Source of the DNA: Beroe forskalii
Lineage: Eukaryota > Ctenophora > Nuda > Beroida > Beroidae
NCBI GenBank assembly: GCA_011033025.1
Contig: WFMF01000022.1
Span: 496,001 to 560,000 of the forward strand
DNA: 64,000 bases
Reading direction: 5' to 3'
The notes under the pieces were generated by a model that saw nothing but the letters and a program-made list of their open reading frames with translations, was not told the origin of the DNA and did no database searches. Below, piece after piece: positions 8,388 to 52,635 of this stretch. Position numbers and translations under genes: made by a program. Positions within the stretch are counted from its first letter, which is position 1; each line of letters starts with the position of its first letter.

Positions 8388-8671
8388 ATGGACATAGCCC
8401 ATCTAACTTTATCTACAAATTCAACTACATATCTGGAGGAAGCAGGGATGGAGCCCAATGTAATCTTTATACTCCAAAATCAAAAAATCTGAAGAATTTC
8501 TACTACTTAGGTGCTAAGGCATGGAATAGCATTCCAGTTGATTTAAGAAGTATAAGTGATCCAAAAGATTTCGGGAAAAAATACAAAACTCGTCTACTCG
8601 ACTCAGTAACTAGTGATTCTAGCTATGTAGTGAACAATTCATTTGACCACATATATAAAATCAAGGCATAG
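8388..8671 (+). pseudogene. LINE reverse-transcriptase 3' remnant, part 2 (after the hAT insertion)
   Basis: Frame continuing from 7072: the segment includes NFYYLGAKAWNSIPVDLRSI and then DPKDFGKKYKTRLLDS, ending in TAG at 8669-8671. The block 'Tyr-x-Gly-Ala-Lys-Ala-Trp-Asn-x-hydrophobic-Pro-x-x-Leu-Arg' is the standard C-terminal signature of CR1/L2/RTE-like LINE pol proteins. The preceding half of the same frame lies at 6978-7072. Confidence 0.75.
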
Positions 8672-9690
8672 TGTCAAATGGATTTAGGTATTTATTTGCT
8701 TGAGATACTATCTCATGCTGTAAATTTCTTATACCCCCTTGATAGCAATGTTGCAGTTTCCTTACAATTGACAGTTTTGCTTTGCCCCAGCATCACAATA
8801 TGTTCTGCCGTTAATTTCAACTTTTTATTTTCTCATTCTTAACATTTTCATTTTAATGACTAAATTGTGCTGCTGAGGGACTTTTTAATTAATTTTTTTA
8901 CTTAAATTATTTGATTTGACCTGGGATTGTCACTAAAATGCAGCCTGACCTTGGTAAGTCATTAAAATGCAGCTTTATTTTTCTGTAAATAAGTTAAATA
9001 CTCTTTTTATTCTTAACAGTATGCACTTTATTGAGAGTGTTATGAAATTACCTAACCAATTTATTTTCAGCATATTATTTGATATATTATATTTATTTCC
9101 TTAATGGGTAGCCTTGATAACAGTCTTAATGATTGACTAAGTGCTGTCCCTCAGCACAACCGAGAAGTTTCTTTATATAAATTATTGAAAAAATGTATAT
9201 TGTAATTGTGCTGTAAAATGATATTCAAATTCAAATTCAAAATGTTTCATATTTTTCAACTAGAAATTACAAACTTGCGACTGAGTTCAAACTAAATGTA
9301 GCAACAATGAGCGAAGGAATAATTTCAAGGTTTTGTCAACAAATATAAATATAAATATAATTAATATAAATTAATAATAATAAATGTAATGTAAGCATAA
9401 TGGTATTGAACCATCTCTAATCTCACACCCAATTGATCAATATCAATTAATGTTAACAATTATTTAGCACCATTTCACTCCGGTGCCCATTCCATAGTAA
9501 CATTAATAAAAAGCAATTTTACAATTAACAAATAAGAAGTTATTCAATGTGATAAAACTAATTTTAACTTCCACAATGACAAAATATCAAAATTGATAAA
9601 AACACTGAAAAGCCAGTAAAAATAGTAAGTCAAATAAACATGGTCAAATAATACCAAATGGCAGAATATAAAGAAGAATGTGCAATTTAA
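8672..9690. other. AT-rich non-coding stretch
   Basis: No exon or defined repeat was recognised. The phrases AAAATGCAGC and TGCTGAGGGAC recur. Part of this may be the 3' untranslated tail of the LINE remnant, since it follows the pol stop codon, but no poly(A) or tandem 3' end was defined. Confidence 0.4.
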
Positions 9691-9699
9691 TTTATCAAG

Positions 9700-10215
9700 T
9701 ATAAATATTGATACCTTTCTTCTTGGCTACAAAAGGATTATTTCTTAAGAATTCATTAAACTTTAGTTTGTTTCTTAAATAGCTATCGCCTTCAATTTTT
9801 TCAAGCACAACTGATGATATATACCAGAAATTACTAGGAGAGTGTATTTCAGTATTGTTCTTATAATGATCTAATGAAACCTTAAACAAGATGCTTCTCG
9901 TACAGTTTTAGGTAAGTCATTCCAATAAGGTCTAACTCTCTCTGAAATAAACCCATCATTTACTTTAGTTACTTCTCTTGGCAGCTTGCTACAAGATTTT
10001 CTACAGGTCAACAGGTTTCTTCTGCTTCTGCCTACTTTAAACCAAGTCTTACCATAGTCAACTTTATCATTTAATACTTTAAAAGTTTCAATGAGGTCCC
10101 CTCTAATTCTCCACTCAGCTAAAGTAGTTATATTCAACCTATAATATAAATAAATAGTAAATAAATAATTAATCCAAATTTTCTTTGTAGAACGAATACA
10201 TATGGTATATGACAA
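9700..10215 (-). pseudogene. LINE reverse-transcriptase C-terminal remnant, frameshifted
   Basis: On the minus strand the frame reads EWRIRGDLIETFKVLNDKVD and later SERVRPYWNDLPKTVREA, the usual R-R-x-R-G-D-L-I-x-x-F-K-hydrophobic-hydrophobic-N ... F-S-x-R-V-x-x-x-W-N-x-L-P pattern of non-LTR retrotransposon pol C-termini. The reading continues in a different frame between about 9889 and 9700 (SLDHYKNN ... FNEFLRNNPF), so at least one frameshift is present. No upstream RT catalytic core is visible. It belongs to a different copy, and probably a different family, from the one at 7-8.7 kb. Confidence 0.65.
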
Positions 10216-24000: not shown

Positions 24001-27000
24001 TAAAATTTGCAAGCCTAGCTAATAAAAAATGATAATTTTGTTCTCATGCACATTTAGTTATGATTTCAAAGCATCATTTCTTGACTGAATGTTACTGATC
24101 AAATTTCAATTTTTCTAGATTTAAATCTGTAGTGAAAGGCATGCAGTTTAACTGTGTCATATCATTGGCTATTTTTTGGCATCTTTCAGCTGATGCTTTG
24201 GATTTACCTCTAAGATGTGTCTTTTAGATGGATGCTTCTCAAAGACTACCTCTAAATTGGGCGTCTTTAAAATGACAATTCCTTAAAAGACTGCTATGTT
24301 ACTAACAGCTCTAGGTGATTTTCAAAGACTACCTCTAAGATTGGCGTCTTGAGGCCAAAGGCGTTGTCTTAGATAGTTAGATGGGCGTCCTTAAGCTGAT
24401 GCTTCTCAAAGACTACCCCTAAGACTGGCGTCTTTTAGCTGATGCTTCTCAAAGACTACCCCTAAGACTGGCGTCTTTTAGCTGATGCTTCTCAAAGACT
24501 ACCCCTAAGACTGGCGTCTTTTAGCTGATGCTTCTCAAAGACTACCTCTAAGATTGGCGTCTTTTAGCTGATGCTTCTCAAAGACTACCCATAAGACTGG
24601 CGTCTTTTAGCTGATGCTTCTCAAAGACTACCTCTAAGACTGGCGTCTTTTAGCTGATGCTTCTCAAAGACTACCCCTAAGACTGGCGTCTTTTAGCTGA
24701 TGCTTCTCAAAGACTACCTCTAAGTTATACCCCTGTCTCACATGAAAACCCTTAAGACACTCTTCAATCACTTGTTGCGCAAGAATCGCGAAATTTCTTC
24801 TTCGTCCGGCAAGTTACGAACCCGTAAATCCGTAAAGCTTTCACCTTTTCAATTTCAGGGGTAGACCTAGAATTCAGGCACAAGCCATGTAGTGAAAAAG
24901 CGTGTACCGTGAGTGTTCCACACATTTTGGGGGTCGAAAAAGTAACAAGTTCAAATGACCTATGATGTTCTATAACAAACCAAAAAGTAAGCCTTCAAAT
25001 GCTATCTGTGAAGTACTTACAAAATACGAATTAAGTAGTTCAATGTTGCTATGTACATTGTACAGTCACGTCAAACCAAGATCGCAATAAAATTATTTTA
25101 TGCCAACCAAATATTACAATTTACACCCTGAACGGACTCTGAACCTCTTTTTTTCCAGGGGTGGTAACTCTGAACGGCTGTGGCTAGTTCGCACTGAGTC
25201 AGGGCAGGAAATAAGAATTGACTACGGACCCGGTGCAGTCTGTCATGAAAAAAGGCAGCATTCGGTACAGGTGGAACTGGGGCACTTTTACCTGTGGAAT
25301 TTCACCCTTACTGCTACTGCAACTCACATCTACCTTACTCTCAATGGTAATATGCACCTCAGTTCTTAGTAAACTTGTAAAATATAGAGAATATGCGAAA
25401 TTATGATTTCGCTGATGGCTCTTTAGATCCTTGTGATCACCACCGTCTGTGCTATATTTAGGTAGAATACCAGTGCAAGGCAGCAGTCCTCTTACCGCCC
25501 CTCGGCAACAGTCCATATTCATCAACAGAGGACTTTGGTGCCAGCCATTGATCTGTATTGAACTAAACTCCTGGATTTCAGCAATCAGCTGAACTTCACT
25601 TGTTCCCAGGGGAATCGGTAAGGGAACCACACCAGCGTGATTACAAGGACACCGACAAGACGCATTGCCACCACCAAGTGCTTAATGTTGTGGAATTCAT
25701 GTTTTACGCTGGCAGTAGTCGTCCAGTGGACATCCAATACAGGATATCTCGTAGCAAATATATCAATGAAGTCACAATGAACAATAGTATGTGTCTGTTA
25801 CATTTGGGTTGTAAATTCTTAAATGTAATATTGAGTTCAAATTCACAGTATTTAATTGGGAGACGTGATCAGTGTAATTTCTAAAGTTTATGAAATCATT
25901 GTTCCATTATTGTTTATCCATGATAATGGATGGGTGGAAGAGCAGGAGAGTTGGAAATAGTGTAGAGGGAGCACCCAGATCACACCAAAACTCATCGTTA
26001 AACAGCATGGAACAGACACAACAATCACCATAAAACATTCTCTAGCAACCACCCATTGTTACAAAACGTGAAAACTGTATACATGGTCATCCATAGCAAC
26101 CAAAGACCTTAAACCAGCAAATGCAATTAGTAGCAACATCCAAAAGCAAACGACAATTCCATATTTGGTATCCATCCATGGAGGAACACGACATATAACC
26201 TCATTCATTTTTACTTTATCTCTCTCCTCTGACCCTAACCATAACACTAACCTAACTCAAACCCTTGACACTAACCCTGACCATAACCTTTGCCTATAGT
26301 AGAAATATCATGGGGTGAAGTGTCGTTAGATAAAACACTTAAATGTTCCGAGGTAAGATGTCCGTTCCCCATCCATGACAATCAACATAACAGTCACCTG
26401 CCATATTAGCATATTGAGGTTCATGTTCCAATTTTCTAAATCACCAACCAAGATCTATGCCTTACTGAGAAATAAAGGTCAGCGGTTTCTATACCTTGTA
26501 ACTTCTTAACTTGAAATTGAATTTTGTTGGGAGATCGAGTTAACGTAGATATCTTAATTATTCGTGTTATCTAAAACAGTTTCAGCAAGACATACAATCA
26601 TGCCTTAGCGCGTTCAGAAGAGAACAGCAATCAAGAAGGATCTTCGATTTTGTAGGTTTATGATATAAACGGGGTTGCATTGTGGAGATGGGGTTGAATT
26701 GGGGATATGGGGTTGCATTGTGGAGATGGGGTTGCATTGTGGAGATGGGGTTGCATTGTGGAGATGGGGTTGCATTGTGGAGATGGGGTTGCATTGTGGA
26801 GATGGGGTTGCATTGTGGAGATGGGGTTGCATTGTGGCGATGGGGTTGCATTGTGGAGATGGGGTTGCATTGTGGAGATGGGGTTGCATTGTGGAGATGG
26901 GGTTGCATTGTGGCGATGGGGTTGCATTGTGGAGATGGGGTTGCATTGTGGAGATGAAGTTGCATTGTGGAGATGGGGTTGCATTGTGGAGATGGGGTTG

Positions 27001-30000
27001 CATTGTGGAGATGGGGTTGCATTGTGGAGATGGGGTTGCATTGTGGAGATGGGGTTGCATTGTGGAGATGGGGTTGCATTGTGGAGATGGGGTTGCATTG
27101 TGGAGATGGGGTTGCATTGTGGAGACAGGTTGCATTGTGGAGATGGGGTTGCATTGTGGAGATGGGGTTGCATTGTGGAGATGGGGTTGCATTGTGGAAA
27201 TGGGGTTGCATTGTGGAGATGGGGTTGCATTGTGGAGATGGGGTTGCATTGTGGAGATGGGGTTGCATTGTGGAGATGGGGTTGCATTGTGGAGATGGGG
27301 TTGCATTGTGGAGATGGGGTTGCATTGTGGAGATGGGGTTGCATTGTGGAGACGGGGTTGCATTGTGGAGATGGGGTTGCATTGTGGAGACGGGGTTGCA
27401 TTGTGGAGATGGGGTTGCATTGTGGAGATGGGGTTGCATTGTGGAGATGGGGTTGCACAGTGTAGATGGGATTGTGTAGAATATGAGGCTGCATTGTGTA
27501 GATGGGGTTGCGTAGTGGAGGTGGTGTACGTGCATTTCAATAGTGAGGAAAACCACTCTCTGTTTAGGGTCTAAATTCAGCATCATGTGATTGTGTTTCA
27601 TAGCCCTTCTCATTATTTCAGAGGCTTACTCCTAATTAACCAGTTTTCCCAAATAGGTATCATCTTCTTTATAAGATTTCCATTTTATTCTTAACCATAC
27701 TCCCTTAAACAGGATATCATTTACTTTAACTAATGCTCCGTTGTCCCAGGTATTTCCTGCTTCGGACGCGCGGTATTCGTCGGTACTCGGTCGTGCCTCT
27801 CCTGCTATAAGATACGACAATACTGACACCTCCTTTTACTACCGATAGATCCAGGACGGCCGACGGCAGGACTTAATCAAAGATTCATCTGTTAGGATGT
27901 TCGTTACCCGGACACTCATATTTTCCTCTGTAGTAACCATCTTTTTACTTTTTTAGCTTGTCATATTGCAGAGTACTCACATTTATTGTAGCCCTAGAAG
28001 CCACTTCCTATGATTCTTTATTTTTATGCTGTTTTTAGTATTTGAACATTGTTTATTTCGAGTTTTATCTTTCCCTTTAATAGTTCCGACTCCCATGTGA
28101 TTCTAAACTCTAAAGACTGAGTATCTTGGAGCTCAGTGACTGAAGTAACTGTTCTCTATTTATGGTAAATGTCACAAGGAGCCCATCTCGGCCCTGTCTC
28201 ACTATAGTAATAGAAGAGTTAGGGGAGTCCATTCACTCAAATATGTAAATAATTGAGCAATAGTGTCGTTGACAGCAAAATTTCTAGAATTTTATTGAGG
28301 GCACCTTATAGTTAGCCTAACGTCCAAACGGGGAAACGGGTAAATATAGAATTCTTATATAGACCAAAACTCAAATTCTTATGAGATCAAATTCTCATAA
28401 AATACAAAATTAATTTTGCTCATCCCTTTCAGTCCTGACAGTATCATCCAGACTCCAGTTAAGCAGTTAGAGAGTAGCTGCTGGGCTATATCGAGCACCG
28501 AAGGGGGAGGGGGGGTAACAGTGATAGTTTACGAAGTGAAGTGTCGCCCTGAGGAGTTTGTCGATCTGGCGTGGTTCCACGTTAGCGAACCGTTAAGCTA
28601 ACATACATTCAATGTGTAAATTGAGTTATTAGAATATGTGGATATGTTTTGATTAACTTCTATTTGTAACCAAAATCTTGCATATGAAGGCCTCCTGACA
28701 GGCGGTACCCAAAATCCTGTCAAATAGAGCATGGAATCTGTGTAAGGCCTGTCTGAAGCCTGTCACAAACCTTTTCCCCAACCTGTCACAAAGATAGTTT
28801 AAAATGTAGCAAACCTTTTCCCCGACCTGTCACAAAGATAGTTTTAAAATGTAGCAAACCTTTTCCCCGACCTGTCACGAATATAGTTTTAAAATGTAGC
28901 AAACCTGTCCAAAACTTGTCATGGAGTTTGTAACTTCTACTAAACGGGGACGGATCTACAAGAGATCCAGGAAGAGATAGATTTGTAAAAAAAGTTGCAA
29001 ATCCTGTTCAAAATCATTTCTAAACCCGTCCAAAACTTGTCTGTGAATAGTCAAAAACCCTGTCGCAACCTGTTCAGAGCCTGTCAACAAAAAAGTGGAC
29101 GGGATACCGCCAGTCAAAAGGCCTAGTCTGGCTCCAGGGCCTGGCCGTTGAATTATTCAGCAAAGAATTTTTCACAAAATTTATGTCTTGCCCAAACCAT
29201 GCCCGACCTCTTGTCCTACGAATGCCCGAAATTTGCATCGACAGGTCACCATTACACCGATTTTCCAACTTACCGGTTAACTGTGATGAGGCAAATGCTG
29301 AAGAGGGAAGTGAAGATACAGGTGTTCACGCAGAAGCCGGAGATATTGCACATGACCTGAAAAATACTGGTTGATTTTCAGATTTTCAAGGGCGAGCAGA
29401 ATGGTTTTATTAACAAACTCGTGGTAAAAAATTAGTGTCTGTATTTTAAATTGAGAGAAGTAAAGGAAGTTCAAACACTTTATCAATGACACATATATAG
29501 CATTGAGAAGATAATACGTTCTGTTATAATTACATGGAACTAACGTTTCCGAAGATCCAGCTGCGCTGTTGAGACATGGCTATGGCAGAGAAAGGGATGC
29601 CCATGGAGCCCATGATGATGTCCACCAGACAGAGACTCAGCGTGAACACCGTCGTCACAGACTGCTCGTTCCTCAGCCTTACCATCAGGTAGATCTGAAA
29701 CAGGGCAGCATGTAAGTTCTTCCTTACGAAACATATTTATTAGGAACGACATTTTGAGGATTTTACGAAAAAATCACCATATTTTTGAACCCCGTAAGAT
29801 TGAAAATGACATCATACGTTAACATGGGAAATATTGAAAAATACCATATTTTCGAACCCCCAAAATTTCGGTCGCCAGAATTATCGTGTCAAAATAATCA
29901 TATACAAATCCACTTTGTTTATTGCATGTCGTAGCTCAAGCCGGAGCACGCTGCTTGCAGCTTTTAATATCCCTTATTGCTTCGTAGTTGCACTTGATCC

Positions 30001-33479: not shown

Positions 33480-33717
33480 TCACAAGAGTTGTGAATATTG
33501 TACATGTCCATTGTCCAATGGACACCGAATTGTCTGACATCATGCCAATTTTTCGATGGTTCCATTGAATTCACTTTGGTAATTGTGCTCAATTGATCTA
33601 TCCTGGAGACGGATCGATTGGAAGCCAAATGTGTCCAATATACATATCAAGATATAAAATATCCAAAGGACACCAAAAATAGATTCAAGGAATTAAGAAT
33701 TCAAAGCAAGAAAAACA

Positions 33718-35282
33718 GGCTAAATACTTGGCGGAATCGACTCCGCGGCGGATCCGCGGCGGACCCGCCAGTTCCGCGGCGGACTCCGATAAATTCCGCT
33801 AAATTTTTTTGGCGGAATTTAGTGGACCAGCAGCGGACTTTTTGAAAGTCCGCCGCGGAATTGCGGGTCCGCCGCGGATTTTCCGGGGCTTGGCGGAAAT
33901 TCCGCCGCGGAGTCGTTGAAAATTCCACCAAAAAAGTCCGCCGTGGAGTTTTTCGGAGTTCACAGCAAAATTCCGCCGCGGAATTTTTCCGCCGGCGGAA
34001 TTCGTCAGCGAACTCCGCCAGTGGATTAAAGTCCGCGGCGGACATTAATCCGCGGATTCCGCTGGTGGAATCCTATATACTTGAGTAAATTGGGAATCCG
34101 CCCGCGGAATCTGCCGGTGGAATTTGCCCGCAGGGTCAACCGGCGGACTCCGCCGTTGAAGTCCCCTCGGACCACTCAAGTCCTCGGGCGGCAACTTAGC
34201 AGTGGTACTATGCCGACGGAGACTCACGGACCCTTTACGGACCCTTCCCGGACCCTTCATAGACCTTTCATGGGTCCTTGACGGACCCTTCCCGAACCCC
34301 TAACGGACCCTTTCCGGACCCCTGATAGTCCTTAGCATGGACCTTGTCTTAATTTTCCCGGACCCTTCCCGGGAACTTCCTGGACCCTTCCGGGGAACTT
34401 CCCGGACCCTTCCCCGTTCCCGGTCCTTTTCCGAAGTAAAAGGAAACGATACCTATTAGTATCCCGGGAAGGGTCTGGGAAGTTTCCGGGAAGGGTCCGG
34501 GAAGTTCCCGGAAAAGGTCCGGGAATAGTTCCCGGGAAGAGTCCTGGAAGTTCCCGGGAAGGGCCGGGAAGTTCCCGGGAAGGGTCCGGGAAGTTCCCGA
34601 GAAGGTTCCGGTAAAATTAAGACAACGTCCATGATAAGGACTGTTAGGGGTCCGGGAAGGGTCCGTGAGGGGTCTGGGAAGGGTCCGTCAAGGACCCATG
34701 AAAGGTCCATGAAAGGGTCCAGGAAGGGTCCGGGAAGGGTCCGGGAAGGGTCCGTAAAGGGTCCGCGGTGAGTCTCCGTCGGCAGAGTACCAAGTTGCCG
34801 CCCGAGGACTTGAGGGGTCCGAGGGGGAGTTCAACGGCAGACTCCACCAGTGGACCCTGCTAATGAATTTAAGTTCGCCGGCAGATTCCGCCGGCGGATT
34901 CCTAATTTAATCAAGTATATCGGATTCCACCAGCGGAATCCGCGGATAAAAGTCCGCCGCGGACTTTAATCCACTGGCGGAGTTCGTTGACGAATTCCAC
35001 CGGCGGAAAAAATTCCGCGGCGGAATTTTGCTGTGAACTCCGAAAAACTCCGCGGCGGACTTTTTTGGTGGAATTTTCAACGACTCCGCGGCGGAATTTC
35101 CGCCAAGCCCCGGAAAATCCGCGGCGGACCCGCAATTCCGCGGCGGACTTTCAAAAAGTCCGCCGCGGGTCCACTAAATTCCGCCAAAAAAAATTTTTTA
35201 GCGGAATTTATCGGAGTCCGCCGCGGATCCGCCGCGGAACTGGCGGGTCCGCCGCGGAGTCGATTCCGCCAAGTATTCAGCC
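33718..35282. mobile_element. 1,565-bp fold-back transposable element with 8-bp target duplication
   Basis: The whole element is one long inverted repeat centred near 34,500. The left end GGCTAAATACTTGGCGGAAT and the right end ATTCCGCCAAGTATTCAGCC match with one mismatch. The direct repeat GAAAAACA flanks both sides (33710-33717 and 35283-35290). The outer arms are dense in CCGCGGCGGA motifs; the inner parts are built of GGACCCTTCCCGG units and their complements. The centre near 34430-34470 is not symmetrical. No transposase is encoded; frames through the arms mirror each other and are artefacts. An 8-bp duplication fits hAT-, P- or Merlin-type transposases, but the terminus does not settle which. 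Confidence 0.9.
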
Positions 35283-35290
35283 GAAAAACA

Positions 35291-38251
35291 TGGCAAATTA
35301 TTTGATATCTTAATAAGATTTATTGAATTTGAATGGGCGATACCGAAATAATTTCTAAACTTCTAACATTTTTACGCTTGCAGTTGAAAAAGCTGAGCCA
35401 TAGCCCATACCATTCAATATCTATCTTATCAAGGCTAAACCTACATGCTTGGGAAAATGAGAAATTGCACTGAACTAATAGATACCATGGATATGCTGAA
35501 TGCTGATATATGCAGTTGCAGATAATATATTTCCCAGGCACATGCACTCGACTAGCCGCTATCGGTAAGCGAGGGGAGGTTTTAATATTGGTTTCATGAA
35601 TAATGCCATCGCGGGCAATGAATTAACGGCTCAAAAGGAGTAACAAAGGCAGTGTCTAGAGGGGTTTAATATCATTACCAAAACCTTCCACAGAAGCTCG
35701 CGGTGAAGCTTATGGTAAAACCATATCTGCAGGCATTCAACAATAATATTAGTATTCAAGCCGCAGAGCACATGCTAGGTGACTGACAAATGCCTGATGA
35801 TGATATAGCATCACTCTGCTTTTATAGTATCCCGACTCTCCGCTGCTCAGAGCAGCATTTTCTAGCTTTCTTACTGTAAAGTGATCAGTGTATTCTAATA
35901 TTCTAATGTCCAACCTGGTTTACTGCTTTAGTATAACCTTCTTCTCAAGAATTAGGTGCTAGTAAATAGTATAACTATATGGTGACTGACTATCGCTATA
36001 GTGACTGACTACAAAATACCAAGCATCTATATAAGTAATAGAATACGGGAGCAAAAGTGAGTGTGATATATGCCCTGTTTTTGGCTTTGCGCAACGAACC
36101 GGACATTACGTGAGTTATTATATTTGATGACATTACATCTTAAAAGTGGCCACGTGGGGTCTGTCGAAGCAGGGAGGGAGAGCAGCTAGTCTGCCAGTAG
36201 TTAATCAGCGATATTGGTGGGGAGAAATCATCACTGCTATTGGTCTGATACACGAAACAGCAACCCGCGCAACAACGCTCATCATCAAACACATATGGTT
36301 TTATGAGAGCTCCGATAGATTATCAGTGCTTTACCTATAGACCACCACCACAATGATATTATAGATTTGTAAACATTGCATGGACCTGTGATTTGATACA
36401 GAAGTGAGGTTTATATGAGTAGCTTGATTAGATTTATACCAGCCTTGTTCCAGGCATCTTTTACAACAAACAAACTGGAGAGTTGTCGGACTCTCACTTT
36501 ACTTCCAAAAAGGCAGCGGCTCGAAATCGATTATAGAACTTGAAGATAAACAGAATATTTGAGATCACATTCACTCTTTCACTGAAACATACTTACATAA
36601 TCTTGTAAGTGATTATGTGAAAACCATGCGAATGATTTTCACCGAAGTACACAACTTCGGTGAAAATGGACCATCTTCAAAATCTTTTTTATTGGTGATA
36701 GAATCACCTATCCTTTCGAATTGTTGCTTATCAATTTGTACAAAGGCAAACGAAATATGTGAATGCAGGGAGAGGACTTTCAACCTCTTGAAATATCTAA
36801 ACTCAATGAATTTAGCCTTCTGGAAGTTAAATAATGAGCCAATATAACCTTCTCACTTTGAAAGGTGGGCAAATACCGTCAAGAAGAAGTCGAGGCGGTG
36901 GAATTATTGAAAGATGGGAAGGTAGTAGGTGCTACTATCTCATATCTTCATAGCATTTTTTGTCGCAATTCTCATGAAGGAATCGAAACATCAGGCGATA
37001 TATAAAAATATCTTATTAGTAAGTCTTGTGTTCCTGCTTAAATTGATTATGACGGTTTCACTTCCTCTTTTATTGTCATCAGAGTTTTTCACACTTTCCC
37101 AAAGAAATGGCAAATTTGATGAAACTGCAGAATGATAATTCTATAATTTCTCTAATGATATTTCCAGCAGGTCTGGCGTCAAAAAATTAGATTAGAAGAG
37201 AAAAACGAAAATCGAAAATTTAAACATGCAAACGTTGTTTGCATTTATCAGGTCTGACATAATGATTGGGTTCTCAGAGCTTACTTGGGCTAGAAGTTGT
37301 AGATGCTTTATCTCTTTATATAAGCTAGATCAGTTAAACTTCAGGTTTTTTCTGAATTTAATAATTATTATGATTTGCGGAAGAGTATTTTTACTTTTAT
37401 TATATTTTTTCCAATATATTTTCTATTAGACAAGATAAGTATTGAGAGAGATAGCGGTTCTCAGGTTACAGGAAACAAACGTTTTGCAGGAGACCTTTCA
37501 TTCAACCTCATAGGTTAACGCAACCTGTTCTTAAACCAAATCCCTGATCGTCCTTTTTTGAAGTTGTTGCTTTTTGAAAAATAATTTTTCCATTCCAATT
37601 TTTGGAATAACTGCACTATAGATTATAGTTGACTTAAAACTCTAAAGGGTTCAAAGCAAAAACATTTTTTTGCATTTTTGACAAAATTACTTGTCTTCTG
37701 TATTGGAAAAAAATAAAACCGAATTAATTCACAAAAATTTGATTCAGCAGTCTAAATAAATATATAGGAATATCCTTTCACTTATCGAAAAAAGGCATTA
37801 TTCTTGACCTTCGGCTTCGAATTAACTGTCAACAATCTAAGTGCCGTTAATTAATTCAAATTGATTATTTAGAATATTTTCAAACTCAAGAAACTGCCAA
37901 AATTGAAAATTCCTGCCATCGTAAGAGTAACTTAACTGCAACTGCAAGGTTAATTCGTCACACTGATTTGCTCATATAACACTATGATATTATCTGCATA
38001 GAATTAGAACGATAGTTATCATAGAATATTATAGATACCTTAGGAGGTTTATTTATAAAGGTTGTAATTTGGGGATTTTTCAGAAAAATCCCCATTTCAT
38101 CACCCACCATGAAATTTCGAAATGACGTCATTATCATATGTTAACGAGAGTAATAACTTGAAAAGTCCCCATCTTTTCAACTTTGAAACACCGAAATTTT
38201 ATCCCACATAAAAACACCTCCTAAGATATCACAGATAGCAAATATCAACGG
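35291..38251. other. Intergenic AT-rich stretch
   Basis: No gene was recognised. A 14-bp perfect hairpin (ATTTTCACCGAAGT, loop ACACA, ACTTCGGTGAAAAT) lies at 36635-36667. A small inverted-repeat element may span about 38039-38226, with CTTAGGAGGT near the left and CACCTCCTAAG near the right end and an inner GGGGATTTTT hairpin. It ends just before the start of the multi-exon secreted protein gene, so the promoter of that gene should lie here. Confidence 0.4.
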
Positions 38252-41200
38252 ATGATGAAGGAACAGGTGGTCGTACTGGTATTTCTTCCCCTGCTTCTAG
38301 TCATAGGTCGGTACTCGGTTTCTCTGAAATATTATCACTGCTCTTCTTTCATAAGGATTATTTTATTTTCAAATATGTTATCTCAGATTAGTTTTATCTG
38401 CAATTTTTGGTCAATTAACTTAAATCTCAACTTATATCTCACATTCGTGTTTTCCAAAATATGAGGGGTGAAGTGTGAACCCCCCTTAATCGTAATAATC
38501 GTAATGTTTACTAAGCTTATTGTGACAAAATTCTTACGACGAAAAATTAATCGAACATCACAATTATCAGGGGAAGTCGACGCATCTACGTTTAGGACAA
38601 GTATCGGGGCTTGCAGGACTGAGGACGGAGGCAAAGCAGGACTGAAGTATTTCAGTGATACACATTGCTTATTGAGATGCAGTGCAAATGACACATGTAC
38701 TGGTTACGTCATGGGTGAAACCTGGTGTGAAACCTACCATAACGAATATGTTACTGGGGATGGAAGAACTGAATACACGTGCCATGAAAAAGGTATCAAA
38801 TTTTTCAGAATTATTTTCAATTTTTAATCTAAAGCTAATCTAAAGCTGAGATCACCTTTGGTTCAAATTTGATTGTTGGCTCCATTTTTGCTCCGAGGCC
38901 TCATATTGGCGATGTTGGTTCTTCGGAATCAAAATCATCGTCAAAATGTTGACACATGTCCTGACCATCCCGGCCGCCTCATGCTTCCCAAACTATCACG
39001 TATGAGCTGTTTGATATACTAATAAATTATCAATTTTATAGAAGAAGAAGAAGGAGAAATAATTTTGTTCACGACAAGTGTCGGGGCTTGCAGGACTGAG
39101 GATTTTGGCAAAGCAGGACTGAAGTATTTCGGTGATACAGATTGTTTATCGCGTTGCAGTGCAAATGCAACATGCTCTGGTTACGTCATGGGTGAAACCT
39201 GGTGTGAAACATACCATAATGAATATGTTACTGGGGATGGAAGAAATGGATTTACGTGCCATGAAAAAGGTAAGCAAAATCTCAGTTTTCAATTTTGAAT
39301 TTGCATAAATTTATTGCAAATTTTTATTTTTCTGGTAGTATAGAGTAATAGATTTTACCTATGTTAGTCCATCTCTTCCGATTTTCCCTCCTCTGCAAGT
39401 GAGTAGCTCTTAGGTGGCAGTATATTGATCAAAGGATTCACATTGGGACCATCCATGAAGGACGTCCGCATTTGCAAAATCTCGGCCATTTTAGACCCCT
39501 CCCCCTTGTCCGCAAACTTCAGCATTCCAAAAAACCATCATTTTTGGGCCCGAAATTTCACGATTTTCTAGTGAAATACCCGTCAAATAAATCAAAATAT
39601 CCATAAACTACGGACGTCCGCATTTGCCCAAGCACCCCCTCCCCCTGAGTCCGCAAACTTCCGCATAGGTTAGACTCCCTTCCCATCGCGGACGTCCTTT
39701 ATGGATGGTCCCTCTTAGATTTTAAATTAAGCTGGTGACAGTTCTACAGTTAAGGAAGTTTAAGCGCCCGAGAAAGCAAGACCTGGCTGCAATGGGACGC
39801 TCCTCATTCCGTAGCCTTCCTATAAATGCGAAGTTTTCGGTGCACTCGGCTAATTGGACTATGTGACGGCTTAGATTTGAGATGAAACAGTAACCCCTCA
39901 CCCTTTCCACAATGGCTCCATGGGTTACGTAACTGACCCAGACTGATAACCAAATGAACCTTTCGTGTTTCATACTTTCATAACAAAGTGAGGAGTTTTA
40001 TTTCAGAAGGAGATTGGAAAAAAGACAAAGATGACGAAGAAGAAGAAGAGGATGAGGAGGAAGAAGATGAAGATGAAGGTGAAGATGGTGAAGATGAAGG
40101 TGAAGATGAAGGTGAAGATGGAGGTGAAGATGAAGGTGAAGATGGAGGTGAAGATGAAGGTGAAGAGGAAAACGATGTTTTGTACCGGACAAGTGTCGGG
40201 GCTTGCAGGACTGTGGACGGAGGCAAAGCAGGACTAAAGTATTTCGGTGACACAGATTGCTTATCGCGTTGCAATGCAAATGCGACATGCACTGGTTATG
40301 TCATGGGTGAAACCTGGTGTGAAACCTACTACCATGAATATGTTACCGGGGATGGAAGAACTGAATACGAGTGCCATGAAAAAGGTATTTTAACTCTATA
40401 GGATTTTACCAAAAATTTATTGCAAATTCAATTTGTCTGGTAATAGGTTTTACCTATTTTAGTACATCAGTTCTGTTTCTAGCATTTCTGATATGCAAGC
40501 GTTTAGCTTGTTGGTGACAGTATATGGAAGAAATGATTCACTTGGGAACTTGGTGACAGTTAAGCGCCCAGGATAGCTTATATTTGAAAAAAATCAGTAC
40601 CTACACTGCACCCCTCGCCCTTTAACACAATGACACCATGGGTTCGGTGACTGTCCAATACACCCATTGAGCACTTGACATCTTGTTAAATAATAGCGTG
40701 TCCTTCAGAAGGAGACTGGAAAAAAGACGAAGATAAAGATGAAGAGGATGAGGAAGAAACGGAAGATTACGTTTCGTACACGACAAGTATCGGGGCTTGT
40801 AGGACTGAAGACGGAGGCAAAGCAGGACTAACGCTTTTCAGTGACACAGATTGCTTATTGAGATGCAGTACAAATGAGACATGCACTGGTTATGTCATGG
40901 GTGAAAACTGGTGTGAAACCTACTACCATGAATATGTTACTGGGGATGGAAGAGATCAATACATGTGCCATGAAAAAGGTATCCAATTTTTCAGAATTTC
41001 CATAATATGATATGTTGCTAATGGAGACGATTAAGGAACTTTAAACGCCCAATACGCCTAGATTTGAAACAAATTAGTACCTACACCCCTCACCCTTTGC
41101 ACATGAATGACTCCGTGAGTTCGGTGCCTGACCAATACAGTTCCACCCATTGACCACTTGACACCTTGTTTAATAACAGCGTGTACTTCAGAAGGAGACT

Positions 41201-44200
41201 GGAAAAAGGATGAAGATGAGGGAGAGGATGAGGGAGAGGATGAGGAAGAAGAGGATGAGGAAGAAACGGAAGATTACGTTTCGTACACGACAAGTGTCGG
41301 GGCTTGTAGGACTGAGGACGGAGGCAAAGCAGGACTAACGCTTTTCAGTGACACAGATTGTTTATCACGTTGCAATGCAAATGCGACATGCACTGGTTAT
41401 GTCATGGGTGAAAATTGGTGTGAAACCTACTACCATGAATATGTTACTGGGGATGGAAGAACTGAATACACGTGCCATGAGAAAGGTATCCAATTTTTCA
41501 GAATTTCCATAATATGATATGCTGCTAATGGTGACGATTAAGGAACTTTAAACGCCCAATACGCCTAGATTTGAAACAAATTAGTACCTACACCCCTCAC
41601 CCTTTGCACATGAATGACTCCGTGAGTTCGGTGCCTGACCAATACAGTTCCACCCATTGACCACTTGACACCTTGTTTAATAACAGCGTGTACTTCAGAA
41701 GGAGACTGGAAAAAGGATGAAGATGAAGAAGAGGATGAGGGAGAGGATGAGGAGGAAGAGGATGAGGAAGAAACGGAAGATTACGTTTCGTACACGACAA
41801 GTATCGGGGCTTGCAGGACTGAAGACGGAGGAAAAGCAGGACTAACGCTTTTCAGTGACACAGATTGCCGATTGAGATGCAGTACAAATGAGACATGCAC
41901 TGGTTATGTCATGGGTGAAAACTGGTGTGAAACCTACTACCATGAATACGTTACTGGGGATGGAAGAGATCAATACATGTGCCATGAGAAAGGTATGCAA
42001 ACTCTTAGCATTTTACCAAAATTTATTGCAAATTTTCCTTTCCATAGTAACAGATTTTGAACTATTCTAGTACATCTACTTCGATTCTACTTTTCTGTTA
42101 AGGAAGGGTTAAGCTCGTTGGTGGCAGTAATTTTATCAAAGGATTCACTATGAAACACTTGATAAAGCTGGTGACGGTTAAGGAAGTTCGAACGCCCGGT
42201 ATGGTCTAGATTTGAAACAAATTAGTACCTACACCCATCATCCTTTGCACATGAATGACTCCGTGAGTTCGGTGCCTGACTAATACAGTTTCACCCAGTG
42301 AGCACTTGACACCTTGTTTAAAATAACAGCGTGTAATTCAGAAGGAGACTGGAAAAAGGATGAAGATGAAGACGAAGAGGATGAGGAAGAAGAGGAAGAC
42401 AACGTTTCGTACACGACAAGTATCGGAGCTTGCAGGACTGAAGACGGAGGGAAAGCAGGACTAACGCTTTTCAGTGACACAGATTGCTTATTGAGATGCA
42501 GTACAAATGAGAAATGCACTGGTTATGTCATGGGTGAAAACTGGTGTGAAACCTACTACCATGAATATGTTACTGGGGATGGAAGAACTGAATACACGTG
42601 CCATGAAAAAGGTATGCAAACCCTGAGAAAGGTATCCAATTTTTCAGAATTTCCATAATATGATATGTTGCTAATGGTGACGATTAAGGAACTTTAAACG
42701 CCCAATACGCCTAGATTTGAAACAAATTAGTACCTACACCCCTCACCCTTTGCACATGAATGACTCCGTGAGTTCGGTGCCTGACCAATACAGTTCCACC
42801 CATTGACCACTTGACACCTTGTTTAATAACAGCGTGTACTTCAGAAGGAGACTGGAAAAAGGATGAAGATGAAGAAGAGGATGAGGGAGAGGATGAGGAA
42901 GAAGAGGATGAGGAAGAAACGGAAGATTACGTTTCGTACACGACAAGTATCGGGGCTTGTAGGACTGAAGACGGAGGCAAAGCAGGACTAACGCTTTTCA
43001 GTGACACAGATTGCTTATTGAGATGCAATACAAATGAGACATGCACTGGTTATGTCATGGGTGAAAGCTGGTGTGAAACCTACTACCATGAATATGTTAC
43101 TGGGGATGGAAGAACTGAATACACGTGTCATGAAAAAGGTACCCAAAAAGCGAACTATACTTTTGATGTTGGAAATTAATATTTTTATGATCCCTTGAAT
43201 CACCCAGTCCGTTACCTTGTCAATCTCAAATTTTTTCTTCGATTTAATATAAATGTTAACCGTTTTAGATGGTCAATTTGAAGAATAAACCATGCTGTCT
43301 CTACGTAGATTCTGCCGATGAATAAACATTTACAATTACATGCAACAAAGGCTCACGATGCAGATAGGCATTTAACTCCTGTGCCTGTAGCTCTATAACG
43401 TATAAGGAGTCGATAGAATTTGGAATTTTGGATTATTATGGCAAAAAATCACCATCATAAATGGTCGAGTACAGTTCATGAAATTACCTATGAATTATCT
43501 TATTATTATTGTGTTGCGGTGTTATAGAAATTTAATACTTCTCGATCGAAAAAATCAAAAAAAGAAATTTATCAAACTATGTGTAATTGCCTATTATTTC
43601 AGATCAATTTGACGAAGATGACGACGACAAAGACGACGATGAAGATGAAGTTGAAGATGAAGATGAAGGAGAGGATGAGGAGGAAGAAGAGGAAGATGAC
43701 GTTTCGTACACGACAAGTGTCGGGGCTTGCAGGACTAAAAACGGAGGCGATGCAGGAAAAACGCTTTTCAGTGACACAGATTGCTTATCGCGTTGCAGTG
43801 CTGACACGACATGCTCTGGTTACGTCATGGGTGGTAACTGGTGTGAAACCCACCACAATGAATACGTTACTGGGAATGGATGGACTGAATACGAGTGCCA
43901 TGAAAAAGGTATCCTCAAAGTGAACTAAACTTTTGATCTGTTGGAAATTGATATTTTTATGATCCCTTTATAATCGCGAATTCCGTTACCTTATCAATCT
44001 AAAATTCTTGCTTTGATTTGAATGTTCACCGTTTTAAATAAGATGGTTAATTTGAAAGAATAAACCATACCGTCTCTACGTAGATTCTGCCGATGAATAA
44101 ACATTTACAATTACATGCAATATAGGCCCATGATGCAGATAGGCATTTAACTCCTGTGCCTGTAGCTTTATAACGTATAAGGAGTCGATAGTATTTGGAT

Positions 44201-47200
44201 TATTATTATGACCAAAAATCGCCATCAAAAATGCTCGAATACAGTTCATAAAATTGCCTATGAATCATCTTGTTATTACTTGATATTATGTGCGGTGTTA
44301 TAGAAATTTAAAAATTCTCGATCAAAAAAATTAAAATGGAAATTTATCAAACTATGTGTAATTGCCTATTATTTCAGACCAATTTGACGAAGATGACGAC
44401 GACAATGAAGAAGAGGGAGACGAAGTTTTGTACACGACAAGTGTCGGGGCTTGTAGGACTGAGGACGGAGGCAAAGCAGGACTAACGCTTTTCAGGGACA
44501 CAGATTGCTTATTGAGATGCAGTACAAATGAGACATGCACTGGTTATGTCATGGGTGAAACCTGGTGTGAAACCTACTACCATGAATATGTTACTGGGGA
44601 TGGAAGAACTGAATACACGTGCCATGAAAAAGGTATGCAAACCCTGAGAGTTTTAAATTTCTACCAAAATTTATTGCAAATTTTCATTTCCATGGAAATA
44701 GATTTTAACTATTCTAGTTCATCTCTTCCGATTTTACCTCTTCTGATATGTGAATTGTGACGGATTAGATTTGAGGTTAAAACAGTAATTTTTATTCACC
44801 CTTTGCAGCAATACCAAAAACTGAGGGGACTAATCCCTGCTCCATGCAGGCTTTAGATAACTGACCCAGACGACGATTAGATTTGACACCAATTATAAAC
44901 CATTTCTTGTTTGATAACTGACCCTTTCAATAACAAAGTTTGATACTTTCATAAAATTCTATTTCAGAAGGAGATTGGAAAAAAGACGAAGATGAAGAAG
45001 AAGAAGGAGAGGATGAGGCGGAAGAAGAAGGAGAGGATGAGGAGGAAGAAGAGGAATATGACATTTCGTACACGACAAGTGTCGGGGCTTGCAGGACTGA
45101 AGACGGAGGCAAAGCAGGACTAACGCTTTTCAGTGACACAGATTGCTTATTGAGATGCAGTACAAATGCGACATGCACTGGTTATGTCATGGGTGAAACC
45201 TGGTGTGAAACCTACTACCATGAATACGTTACTGGGGATGGAAGAGATCAATACACGTGCCATGAAAAAGGTATATAAACTCTCAGAGTTTTCAAGTTTT
45301 CAACATTTAATTTTCTGGTAATAGATTTTAACTATTCCAGTGCATCTCTTCCAATTAGCCAATTTTACCTCTTTTGATAATATGTGACGGCTTAGATTTG
45401 AGATAAAACAGTAACCCTTCAACCTTTTCACAATGGCTCCATGTGTGAAGTGACCATTTCTCGTTTTATTTTTTCATAACAAAGTGAGAATTTTTTTTCA
45501 GAAGGAGATTGGAAAAAAGATGAAGATGACGAAGAAGATGAAGGAGAAGACCAGGAAGAGGAAGACGACGCTTTGTACAGGACAAGTGTCGGGGCTTGCA
45601 GGAATGAAAACGGAGGCATGGCAGGACGGAAGTATTTCGGTGATACTGATTGTTTATTGCGTTGCAATGCAGATGAGACATGCTCTGGTTATATCATGGG
45701 TGAACCATACTGGTGTGAAACATACCATAATGAATATGTTACTGGGGATGGAAGAACTGAATACACGTGCCATGAAAAAGGTACCCAAAAAGCGAACTAT
45801 ACTTTTGATGTTGGAAATTAATATTTTTATTATCCCTTTATAATCGCCAAGTCCGTTACCAGTACCTTATCAATCTAAAATTTTTGCTTTAATTTAAACG
45901 TTCACCGGCTAGATAAGATGGTTAATTTGAAGAATAAATCATGCCGATGAAAGAAGTAAATATGATAAACATTAATTACAATTACATGCAAAATAGGCTC
46001 ATGATGCAGATAGGCATTTAACGTATGCCTGTAGCTCTATAAAATGCATAGACACGCGCCTATCGGGTCCATTTTGGGATACTTCCAGAGGGCGTCAGCC
46101 CGAGGGATGTATCCGGTTTGGGCCCGAGCCCGTAGGGCGAGGGTCTAAAGCAATATGGACCCGATCAGGCAAGTGTCTATATTATATTATAGACCCGCAT
46201 GAAAACGTCAGAGGGTTCTATAAGCACACGATAGAATTTGTATTATTATGGCCAAAAATCGCCATCATAGATGCTCGAGTACAGTTCATAAAATTGCCTA
46301 TGAATTATCTAACTATTACTTAATATTGGGTGCGGTGTTATAGAAATTTAATATTTCTCGATCGAAAAATTAAAATAGAAATTCATCAAACTATGTGTAA
46401 TTACCTATTATTATTATTAATTCAGTCAAATTTGACGACGATGACGACGACAAGTGACGACGATGAAGACGAAAAAGATGATGAAGATGAAGATGAAGAT
46501 GAAGATGAAGAAGAGGAAGATGAAGTTTTGTACACGACAAGTGTCGGGGCCTGTAGGACTGAGGACGGAGGCAAAGCAGGACTAACGTTTTTCAGGGACA
46601 CAGATTGCTTATTGAGATGCAGTACAAATGCGACATGCACTGGTTATGTCATGGGTGAAACCTGGTGTGAAACCTACTACCATGGAAGATATGTTGCAAA
46701 TTGTCAATAAACCAATAACATGGTGGTAGATTTTCCTCTGATACTGTAAAACTAAAAGGTTTCAAATTCTCAGAATTTTCTATTTACCGACCGATAATCA
46801 ATGTTGCAACAAACCGGTAACCAACCGGTAACTGACCAGTAACCGATTTTCCGACCGGTAACCAACCGGTAACTGTAAAAACTAAACCGTTTCAACCGAC
46901 CGGTAATCGCTTCCTATTCCGACCGGTTGTTAACCGACCGGTAACTGACCGGTAACAAACCGGTAACCAACCGGTAACTGACCAGTAACCGACCGGTAAC
47001 CGACCGGTAACCGACCGGTAACCAACCGGTAACTGACCGGTTACCGACCGGTAACTGTCCGGTAACCGACCGGTAACCGACCGGTAACCGACCGGTAACT
47101 GTCCGTCGACATTTACGAAAAATTACCAAATTTTGAATAAGATAATGTAATACTCTTTCGACTCTTTTCGGCTTCTGCTTGGAAGTTAAAACCTTTAAGT

Positions 47201-47881
47201 TTTACAGTATAAGAGGAAAATCTTAATTAAACTACTGCCATAGTATTGGGAATGGGTTAATGACAATTTGCAACATATCATTACTTGATATAGTTAATTA
47301 ATAGTGTGTGCGGTTAATAGTGTGTGCGGTCTTAGAAATTTGATAATTCTAGATCGAAAAAATATAAAATTGAAATTCATGCTTCTGTGCAATTACCTAT
47401 TAATTCAGTCCAATCTGACGAAGATGACGACAATGAAGATGAAGATGAAGATGAGGAAGAAGATGAGGATGAAGATGGAATTACTTTGAACGCTGTTCTA
47501 CTAGGCATGATCTGCAGAACAACAACAAAAGACTGCGTGGTTCGCTTCACCGTGACCCGCAAGAACGGCAAAAGGATCTCGAAAACACGATCCGATAGAT
47601 TTGGGATTTGTCGGGTAGAAGAAGAGGGGGCTATCAAGTGCATAAAGGCAGGGTTCAATAAGAAGAAACAGCAGATGAACGTGAATCTGGCCAATAAAAG
47701 GGGTGTGCCCTCGTCTGTCAGTGGACGATATGTTGCAATTGTCTACATCAATGGGAGGGAGTACATTTCGGAGTCCTCGACGAATGTGGCAATTATCACG
47801 AAGGAGAACATTCCACCCATACTGGGCCTCACAGATACGGAGGATGGACCTGTGGGCCAAGACGGGACTTATGAGGTGTAA
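38252..47881 (+). CDS. Secreted multidomain protein: tandem PAN/apple-like Cys domains with acidic linkers
   Basis: Exon 1 (38252-38306) codes a signal peptide (MMKEQVVVLVFLPLLLVIG). Twelve phase 1-1 exons follow: 38571-38792, 39042-39269, 40007-40384, 40709-40978, 41192-41485, 41699-41992, 42342-42611, 42845-43138, 43603-43908, 44378-44632, 44968-45270 and 45502-45780. Each codes one domain of about 70 residues with six Cys (TSxGACRTEDGG; DTDCLLRC; TCTGYVMGE; WCETYY; YTCHEKG), preceded from the second domain on by an Asp/Glu-rich linker. The final exon 47409-47881 has an acidic linker and a different domain. All lengths are multiples of three, so any exon could be skipped in frame. The spliced product is about 1,306 residues, with no membrane segment. 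The Cys pattern resembles PAN/apple domains, which bind proteins or sugars, but this is inference. The exons are flanked by ordinary GT-AG introns. Confidence 0.88.
39445..39712. mobile_element. MITE with GGGACCATCCAT termini
   Basis: The left end GGGACCATCCATGAAGGACG and right end CGTCCTTTATGGATGGTCCC form an inverted repeat of about 25 bp (with GTCCGC inside). Internal phrases CGGACGTCCGCATTTGC and GTCCGCAAACTTC are repeated. It lies in the intron between the second and third Cys-domain exons. No matching flanking duplication was found. Confidence 0.75.
41005..43138 (+). repeat. Recently duplicated exon-plus-intron units in the Cys-domain gene
   Basis: The exons at 41192, 41699 and 42845 and about 190 bp of intron before each (AAACGCCCAATACGCCTAGA through TTAATAACAGCGTGTACTTC) are almost identical. 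The unit before 42342 is a somewhat older relative. Differences are a handful of substitutions and changes in the GAN linker length. This shows segmental duplication of whole exon-intron units of about 0.5-1.1 kb. Identity in introns as high as in exons implies recent events or gene conversion, not only protein-level selection. Confidence 0.9.
46048..46180. repeat. Branched (multi-hairpin) palindrome of 133 bp
   Basis: The ends ATAGACAC and GTGTCTAT pair. The stem continues with GCCT/AGGC and CGGGTCCAT/ATGGACCCG. Inside are two separate hairpins: GGATAC...GTATCC enclosing GGGC-GTCA-GCCC, and a C/G-rich one with GCCC-GTA-GGGC. It is GC-rich in AT-rich surroundings and lies in the intron after the last intact Cys-domain exon. 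Its sequence differs from the cloverleaf repeat at 13.2 kb, though the layout is similar. Confidence 0.75.
46436..46709 (+). pseudogene. Decayed Cys-domain exon
   Basis: The sequence follows a TTCAG acceptor and is clearly a copy of the Cys-domain exons (acidic linker, TSVGACRTEDGG, DTDCLLRC, TCTGYVMGE, WCETYY). In phase 1, as used by its neighbours, it meets TGA within the acidic linker, because one base has been gained near AAGTGACG relative to AAAGACG in the exon at 43603. The 3' part of the domain, including the last Cys and the conserved GAAAAAG|GT donor, is replaced by unrelated sequence ending in TAA. Spliced skipping from 45780 to 47409 keeps phase 1, so the gene can work without it. 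Confidence 0.8.
46790..47105. repeat. Short tandem repeat of ACCGGTAAC (palindromic ACCGGT core)
   Basis: About 25-30 copies of a 10-11 bp unit, CCGACCGGTAA, CAACCGGTAA or CTGACCGGTAA, each containing the self-complementary ACCGGT. It lies in the last intron of the Cys-domain gene, just after the decayed exon, so it may have formed at or spread from that site. Confidence 0.92.
47409..47881 (+). CDS. Last exon of the Cys-domain gene: acidic linker plus distinct C-terminal domain
   Basis: Entry after TTAATTCAG in phase 1, then VQSDEDDDNEDEDEDEEED linker and a domain of about 130 residues with four Cys (GMICRTTTKDCVVRF, GICRV, IKCIKAG). It has alternating hydrophobic strands ending in SGRYVAIVYINGREYISESS, suggestive of an Ig-like or other beta-sandwich, but not recognised. 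TAA lies at 47879-47881. The sequence there also reads GAGGT|GTAAGTG, a strong donor, so an isoform continuing further is possible. AATAAA at 48062-48067 favours ending here. Confidence 0.75.
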
Positions 47882-48758: not shown

Positions 48759-49210
48759 TACCTTATCGGACATAATTATCACGGACTTTAGTTTCACGGA
48801 CCTAAAATTTCACGGACATCAATATACACGCTCGATCCTGCCACTCCAAATTTCAACTAAATTTCGAAATTATCGGCTCGATTTTCCCCATTTTCTTCCA
48901 CGATTTGAATACTTGAATTGAACTTGAAGGTCTTTTCAATATTTTTTGTTAATTAATATGATAAATTTCCATATTGCAGGCACTAAGCATAAAAAAGAAG
49001 TCTAATTTTCTTAAAAATTTTATTATTTGTGCATTTAAAGAGATAAAGTCCGTAATTTTGCGTTTCTACCCTAGAATTGTAAGAGGAAATACCGGACTTG
49101 ATTTTCACGGACCTGAAAATCACGGGGACAAAATTTTCACGGACATTAATATTCACGCTGAGGTGCTCAGCGTGAATATTATGTCCGTGATAATTATGTC
49201 CGATAAGGTA
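48759..49210. mobile_element. MITE with TA target duplication (CCTTATCGGACATAATTATC termini)
   Basis: TA followed by CCTTATCGGACATAATTATC and ACGGAC at the left is matched by the exact reverse complement followed by TA at the right (about 49182-49210). The flanking TA pair fits Tc1/mariner-type insertion. Inside are many CACGGAC phrases and a perfect 15-bp hairpin AATATTCACGCTGAG/CTCAGCGTGAATATT with loop GTG. No transposase is encoded. Confidence 0.8.
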
Positions 49211-50944: not shown

Positions 50945-52635
50945 AAAATTAGTATCCATTAGTTACCATTAGTATCCGTGGTAACTGGGTGGATACTGGG
51001 TGGATACTATGGTGGATACTAAATGTCAGATTTAGTATCCACGGATATAATGGATACAGTAGTCTATTTTTTAATAAATAGTATCCACCGTGGATACTAA
51101 ATTAGTATCCACTAGTTACCATTAGTTACCATCAGTTACCATTTAGTATCCACCCAGTTTCCACGGATACTAAAATTGACGTTAGTTACCATTTAGTATC
51201 CATTAGTATCCACTGACGAATTAGTATCCATCAGTTACCACCACTTTGTAAAAATCAATTTTCGTGGATACTGGAGCCCAAATTTGGTAACTAATGGTAA
51301 CTGTTGGTAACTAAATGGTAACTAAGTAACTGGGTGGATACTAAATGAAATAGTATCCACAAATAAAATTTATTACCAAACCAGAATAGCTGTGTACAAA
51401 TGTGAATTTTAGAAATTAGTTACCACCACTTACAAGCCCCTGCCGCTCCGTAAAAATATCATTCGCATTAATGAGGTGTATTTATTAGCCCTATACTCAG
51501 TTACCATTAGTATACACGCAGTTACCATTAGTATCCACCGAGTATCCATTAGTATCCACACAGTTACCATTAGTATCCACCCAGTTACCATTAGTATCCA
51601 CCCAGTTACCATTAGTATCCACCCAGTTACCATTAGTATCCACCCAGTTACCAATAGTATCCACCCAGTTACCAATAGTATCCACCCAGTTACCATTAGT
51701 ATCCACCCAGTTACAATTAGTATCCACCCAGTTACCATTAGTATCCACCCAGTTACCATTAGTATCCACCCAGTTACCAACCATCACCCAGTTACCATTA
51801 GTATCACCCAGTTACCATTAGTATCCGCCCATTACCATTAGTATCCCAGTTACTTAATTATCACCTAGTTACCATTAGTATCACCCAGTTAGGTATCACC
51901 CAGTTACCATTAGTATCCCCGGTTACCATTAGTATCCAGTTACCATTGGTATCACCCAGTTACCATTTTGTCACCAGTTACCATTAGTATCACCCAGTTA
52001 CCATTAGTATCCACCCAGTTACCATTATTATCCACGAGTTACATTAATTGTCACACGTTGCCATTAGTATCACCCAGTTACCATTAATCCGCAGTTGCCA
52101 ATAGTATCCGCAGTTTACCATTAGTATCCTGGTTACAATTGGTATCCCAGTTGCATTAGTATCCGCAGTTACTTATTGTCATTTGCCATTAGTATCACCG
52201 GTTACCATTAGTAGTCCGAGTTACGTTAGTATCACCCAGTTACCCGGTATCCGCAGTTGCCATTGTTGTCACCCGGTTACCATTAGTATCCACCCAGTTA
52301 CCATTGGTATCACCAGTTGCCATTAGTATCACAGTCTTAATTAGTAATCCACCCAGTTGCCATTAGTATCCACCCAGTTGCCATTGGTATCCACCCAGTT
52401 GCCATTCTAATTGTCTGCAGTTGCCATTAGTATCCAGAGTTGCCATTAATTATCCACCAGTTACCATTATTATCACGGTTGCCATTAGTGTCACCCAATT
52501 GCCATGGTATCCACCCAGTTGCCATTGTTATCTACCCAGTTACCAATTAATCACCAATTACCATTAGTATCCACGATTTACCCATTACTAGTATCACCCA
52601 GTTGCCATTAGTATCCACCCAGTTATTAAGTATCT
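50945..52635. repeat. 21-bp minisatellite CAGTTACCATTAGTATCCACC
   Basis: From about 51495 to 51780 the 21-bp units are almost perfect. From there to 52635 they degenerate through indels and substitutions. The left part (50945-51370) contains the same words in both orientations (GTAACTGGGTGGATACT and GTATCCACCCAGTT), separated by unique bits. Because 21 is divisible by three, plus- and minus-strand frames of about 100-120 codons stay open; they are not genes. Confidence 0.95.

Follow-up and report, generated by a model that had tools for sequence, protein, structure and literature searches.

Within a 64,000-nucleotide stretch of the genome of the ctenophore Beroe forskalii (assembly GCA_011033025.1, contig WFMF01000022.1, positions 496,001 to 560,000 of the forward strand; hereafter the window, whose own numbering is used throughout), positions 38252-47881 of the plus strand carry a tandem array of exons, each encoding one six-cysteine domain, which probably belongs to a single gene for a secreted, highly acidic protein. 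An exon model built from reading frames and splice sites of the genomic sequence joins a signal-like first exon, 12 domain exons and a terminal exon into an open reading frame (ORF) of 1306 amino acids with no internal stop, and all of these exons are likely to be joined in a single transcript.

Organisation of the array and its predicted product

Exon 1 (38252-38306) provides the start codon and a signal-peptide-like sequence, MMKEQVVVLVFLPLLLVIG, as judged by eye from the residues. It ends at a phase-1 donor starting at 38307; counting 110 bases on from the ATG at 38252, no other GT is in phase 1. The LVIG with which the exon closes recurs in the signal-like sequences of two other loci of the genome (L020 and L023). 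The 12 intact domain exons span 38571-45780, and every one of them has a length divisible by three, an AG acceptor and a GT donor in phase 1, and a 3' end reading AAAAAG or AGAAAG followed by gta; eight of the 12 open with EGDWKK.

The domain exons consist of a linker of 12 to 64 residues followed by the domain. The linker is clearly of Asp/Glu type in 10 of the 12 (12-41 acidic residues), being almost devoid of acidic character in exon 2 (38571-38792; 2 of 12 residues acidic) and short in exon 3 (39042-39269; 5 of 14). Exon 4 (40007-40384) has the longest, with 41 Asp or Glu among 64 residues, and because this linker holds a 12-bp tandem repeat (40063-40170), it can change length in frame. 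Acidic linkers precede the domains of exons 5 (40709-40978), 6 (41192-41485), 7 (41699-41992), 8 (42342-42611), 9 (42845-43138), 12 (44968-45270) and 13 (45502-45780; the twelfth intact domain exon), while exons 10 (43603-43908), whose domain is one of the two most diverged, and 11 (44378-44632) have linkers of a DQFDEDDDD type. The terminal exon (47409-47881) encodes a further acidic linker and a C-terminal module (47477-47878), keeping the reading frame up to the stop codon.

As nucleotide sequence, the array forms a 204-nt repeat family of 13 copies within 38252-47881, 12 of them intact and one decayed. Across this and a second repeat family of 299 nt, ungapped identity to a reference copy is 62-95%, and the sharing of sequence among the repeats is far beyond chance. 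The domain sequences are 76-93% identical to one reference copy, and all 12 are distinct from one another. Read from an acceptor matching those of its neighbours, the decayed copy (approximately 46426-46690, plus strand) runs into an in-frame TGA (46455-46457); its domain is shifted to another frame, and its 3' end, the portion beyond the fifth cysteine, is missing. An 11-bp minisatellite, TAACCGACCGG, lies next to it in the long last intron (46931-47099).

The predicted protein is 29% Asp plus Glu and contains 76 cysteines; the mature form has a predicted isoelectric point (pI) of 4.05 and a net charge of about -268 at pH 7. An N-x-T sequon of the N-glycosylation type is found between the third and fourth cysteines in nine of the 12 domains. 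These results uphold the description given in an earlier note on this DNA, made from the letters alone: twelve consecutive phase 1-1 exons within 38252..47881, nearly all with an Asp/Glu linker, encoding a secreted-type, acidic, beads-on-a-string protein, to which the decayed thirteenth copy is now added.

The pI and the long Asp/Glu runs also raise the reading that the product is a mineral-associated acidic protein, as in the statolith of the aboral organ, and the earlier note had listed mineral binding among the possible roles. This is very improbable. Ctenophores are not known to have a mineral skeleton, the statolith being the exception, which makes mineral binding less likely, and the acidic stretches of the window protein are spacers between cysteine domains, unlike those of the acidic skeletal matrix proteins of corals and sponges, with which it has in common a pI below 4.5 and Asp/Glu runs. 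A pI below 4.5 and richness in Asp and Glu are the marks of acidic skeletal proteins in the available text of one study (PMC4633127), and in the accessible portions of papers on Sycon and Vaceletia, PAN/apple never names a protein domain.

A six-cysteine domain of probable PAN/apple fold

The six cysteines are invariant in all 49 aligned domains from the genome itself and in eight of eight metagenomic relatives aligned with the 12 window domains. Their order is presumably that of apple domains, and disulfides in the PAN/apple superfamily pair 1-6, 2-5 and 3-4. At the sequence level, the domain has weak matches to PAN_2 and to microneme PAN modules around the second to fifth cysteines: 22 of the 49 members match PAN_2 at E values up to 1, the best at 8.5e-4. 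The one window domain matched in a Pfam scan scored 11.7 against a gathering cut-off of 21.1, the whole protein encoded at locus C403 scored 30.7 yet had no single stretch that passed, and no individual domain among the members and pieces scanned was shown to reach the Pfam gathering threshold. Matches to Fibronectin (E of 0.045 to 1.6) were judged to be due to chance.

A structure model of moderate confidence matched PAN/apple folds in Foldseek across all 67 residues, with one helix and five strands, in keeping with the helix packed on a small beta sheet that characterizes this fold; an earlier AF2 model from the window sequences alone was poor and was not used for the fold search. The matches include a complex of the SML-2 lectin with galactose, and copper oxidases and AMA1 were also among the first rows. 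Together, the weak sequence matches and the moderate-confidence model point to membership in the PAN/apple superfamily (PAN_2, PF08276; PAN_4, PF14295), as the earlier note had suspected. Kin by fold are the modules of the microneme proteins MIC5 and MIC4, the N-domains of HGF and plasminogen, and the apple domains of kallikrein and factor XI. Tandem arrays of such domains occur in MIC4 and in factor XI and kallikrein, and known PAN/apple domains bind proteins or sugars. The window gene differs from these in its own domain signature (GACR...GY...WCETY...GDGR), in its Asp/Glu spacers and in having one exon per domain in an array of twelve copies.

Searches beyond the genome yielded few relatives. 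No protein homologue of one exon ORF was found at E 1e-3 among 1428 candidates, and none of the N-terminal part of the protein encoded at locus C308 among 114. A search with a 49-row profile, the only one to find them, returned eight of 52 candidates at E values up to 1, all eight at 7.6e-13 or better; these proteins are all short, and their sources bear the labels ena or merc.

Divergence and exchange among the copies

Comparison of the repeat units revealed segments of different divergence. The intron before exon 6 (40979-41191) belongs to a homogenised block, being 99% identical to the introns before exons 7 and 9, and the introns before exons 10 and 11 are 86% identical; intron lengths (n = 12) range from 213 to 737 nt and are mostly different, two both being 213 nt. 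Between exons 6 and 7, 20 of 201 domain sites differ, versus 5 of the 292 sites in intron plus linker (Fisher 7.5e-5, this being one of six exon pairs chosen after the repeats had been seen, with p-values uncorrected). The pairs 6/9 (13 domain and 3 intron-plus-linker differences) and 7/9 (13 and 2) follow suit; in 5/6, 5/7 and 8/9 the usual opposite pattern holds. Because synonymous divergence (dS) between domains 6 and 7 is 0.24, beside introns that are 99% alike, protein-level selection does not explain the contrast. To judge from the sequences, then, the domain part of a unit and its intron part have separate histories. Furthermore, the nearest neighbours of the copies switch along the unit. 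Taken together, these patterns suggest unequal crossovers or gene conversion whose breakpoints fall inside exons.

Weighing against exchange as the whole explanation, an assembly that joined haplotypes could mimic part of the mosaic. A second haplotype of the locus was not encountered in the assembly; in one of the searches, 40 of 846 candidates were scored. The possibility that the tandem exons and near-identical introns were largely inflated by assembly from a short true array finds some encouragement in the 99% identity of the introns before exons 6, 7 and 9 and in the division of the assembly into 1134 contigs, but it is extremely improbable, given that all twelve domain sequences differ, that intron lengths mostly differ and that multi-exon loci are found on other contigs too.

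The history of the copies was also approached with a tree of 49 domains, in which 16 of the 46 inner branches were starred and 19 were open. Grouping the copies of C771, of C192, of C292 and of C403/C308 requires one change each and grouping those of C1013 two, while the window copies require three, and the latter formed one group in 0% of 200 bootstrap trees. These results make a single founder of the twelve window copies less likely.

For 62 of the 66 domain pairs, the ratio of nonsynonymous to synonymous divergence (dN/dS) is below 1, which argues that the domain is under constraint. This bears on the possibility that the protein is a recognition or adhesion molecule, directed at prey, self or microbes, in which domain diversity is selected and variety arises by exon exchange. 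The mosaic exons and the differences in domain number between loci would suit such a molecule, as would the sugar and protein binding of PAN/apple domains elsewhere and, by analogy, the presence of SML-2 among the fold matches. However, with dN/dS this low, the domain taken overall shows no sign of diversifying selection, and no second haplotype emerged from the candidates scored (40 of 846 in one search), so that this reading is rather unlikely. As a long shot, the locus might be a generator of diversity, the near-identical intron and linker blocks serving as exchange sites, individual Beroe differing in the number and mix of PAN/apple exons, and the resulting chain serving in recognition of self, microbes or prey or as a tunable glue, in a lineage that diverged very early among animals.

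Relatives in the genome and possible roles

A genome-wide search, in which all 72 candidates were scored, gave 64 domain matches on 19 contigs; 13 of these lie in the window and the other 51 are spread over 18 further contigs, some matches being partial and one containing stops. GGT, the position of a phase-1 donor, directly follows 19 of 26 other domain copies and is missing after seven (excluding the single-ORF loci C403 and C308). The C-terminal module is matched 13 times in the genome (all 18 candidates scored) and has no convincing match in Pfam or the PDB. At C771, three PAN exons, an acidic linker and the C-terminal module lie in order on one strand, and at C292 two PAN exons are followed in the same way; at C192, PAN exons lie upstream of ORFs bearing VWD, C8 and Ig domains together with the C-terminal module. 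Each of these three layouts would represent one gene. Long ORFs of similar make end in the C-terminal module at C502, C44 and C164 (two), and all three that were scanned among these four contain VWD, C8 and Ig.

Because the same C-terminal module follows two domains at C292, three at C771 and twelve in the window, domain number varies by locus. Along with the mosaic copies, this agrees with the prediction of the earlier note that domain number can change without loss of frame.

At two further loci, PAN-like domains occur in single ORFs with VWD and Ephrin_rec_like matches: one of 1714 codons at C403 (L009:2313-7454, minus strand) and one of 675 codons at C308 (L010:1826-3850, minus strand), in which Ephrin_rec_like is below the cut-off. 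The PAN-like domain is seemingly nested in VWD in both, the VWD match being split in two and its first stretch stopping just ahead of the PAN-like domain. These ORFs are possibly intron-less copies.

VWD and C8 domains characterize secreted proteins such as mucins, zonadhesin, von Willebrand factor and some animal adhesives. The resemblance of the present family to them lies in its relatives, in which PAN-like domains or the C-terminal module occur together with VWD, C8 and Ig. The window gene itself is unlike them, as neither VWD nor C8 was found in its domains and terminal exon, scanned as separate pieces. It is therefore not classed as a VWD-type gel-forming protein; its relatives have both domains, and it may share a role with such proteins. 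In one ctenophore, VWD is the one Pfam domain common to known adhesives and to colloblast and tentacle candidates, the overall overlap not being significant, according to the part of that study available (PMC6278862).

The C-terminal module that the gene shares with other loci, and its relatives with VWD, suggest a role in mucus, adhesive or matrix. The explanation that we favour, to which we give about an even chance on present sequence evidence, is that the gene encodes a secreted, multivalent, polyanionic component of mucus or matrix whose domain number is altered by unequal exchange. One gene would supply a signal-like start, then twelve domains of PAN/apple type carried on Asp/Glu spacers, and finally the C-terminal module that it shares with VWD-C8-Ig proteins encoded elsewhere in this genome. 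The secreted protein would act as an extended multivalent chain, in which the PAN/apple domains may bind protein or sugar partners, by analogy with those elsewhere, the acidic spacers would retain water and calcium and keep the beads at a distance from one another, and the chain would be anchored through its C-terminal module in a secreted gel or matrix of VWD type. Domain number would shift through unequal exchange among the copies, at breakpoints lying partly within exons and with the frame kept.

A different fate for the same chain would be cleavage at the KK of the EGDWKK linkers, the protein being a polyprotein precursor that frees small active disulfide domains of a defence- or signalling-like kind. 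Pairs of small ORFs (106-123 codons) that carry a signal-like sequence and one PAN-like domain are found at C503 and C485 (L020 and L023). The existence of such single-domain relatives, with their own signal-like sequences, fits a precursor, as does the recurrence of EGDWKK in eight of 12 exons. Against this, the motif is missing from the other four, the Asp after KK is unfavourable to cleavage by the usual convertases, and cutting there would leave pieces with long acidic tails; a precursor of this kind is distinctly unlikely.

Compared with the mucus or matrix chain favoured here, the Polydom proteins of an early animal lineage are likewise secreted matrix proteins that include a PAN/apple domain, but in the available text (PMC12549020) this domain stands amid pentraxin, Sushi and FA58C domains, and an array or acidic spacers are not described. 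The fold, the acidic spacers and the VWD-type relatives are all of known kinds. Their combination and the twelve-exon array are apparently new, having been found described nowhere in the partial literature covered on PAN/apple domains with sponges, skeletal matrix, tandem exons and ctenophores.

Several other features of the window and the assembly were recorded. An interspersed repeat of about 450 bp (48759-49210), many listed copies of which are 83-89% identical and whose ends of about 40 bp also match inverted, resembles a small non-autonomous DNA transposon. Long minisatellite arrays lie at 20873-22514 (units of 50 and 243 bp), 23429-23914 (17 bp), 26671-27524 (19 bp) and 51498-52625 (21 bp), and ORFs at 33704-34072 (minus strand) and 34906-35310 (plus strand) form an inverted repeat with a long common peptide, AAEFCCELRKTPRRTF... 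Contig C1134 (L043/L044) is the mitochondrial genome with COX1, 13,339 bp long and very AT-rich (17.5% GC). Its ORFs of 90 codons or more are all on one strand (code 4), and seven of nine that were scanned have Pfam matches, to COX1, COX2, COX3, cytochrome b, ND1 and two antiporter-type ND subunits; the ORFs at 7546-8649 and 8929-9867 have none, the first sitting where the B. forskalii URF1 has been described, after the presumed ND5. ARAGORN, run with the bacterial code, found no tRNAs. In the portion available of a study of ctenophore mitochondrial genomes, those of B. forskalii have a mean GC of 17.3%, lack ATP6 and ATP8 and carry an unassigned reading frame behind ND5, and tRNAs are absent from ctenophore mitogenomes (PMC6991124). 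The B. ovata assembly is given as 91.6 Mb in the accessible text of its report (PMC11184263), versus 216 Mb for the present assembly.

The large and probably secreted PAN/apple family of B. forskalii, some members of which also carry VWD, C8 and Ig, would represent a lineage-specific way to build mucus, glue or matrix. The array, with its near-identical introns beside diverged exons, is a clear example of a gene growing exon by exon, and the locus is well suited to watching unequal exchange.
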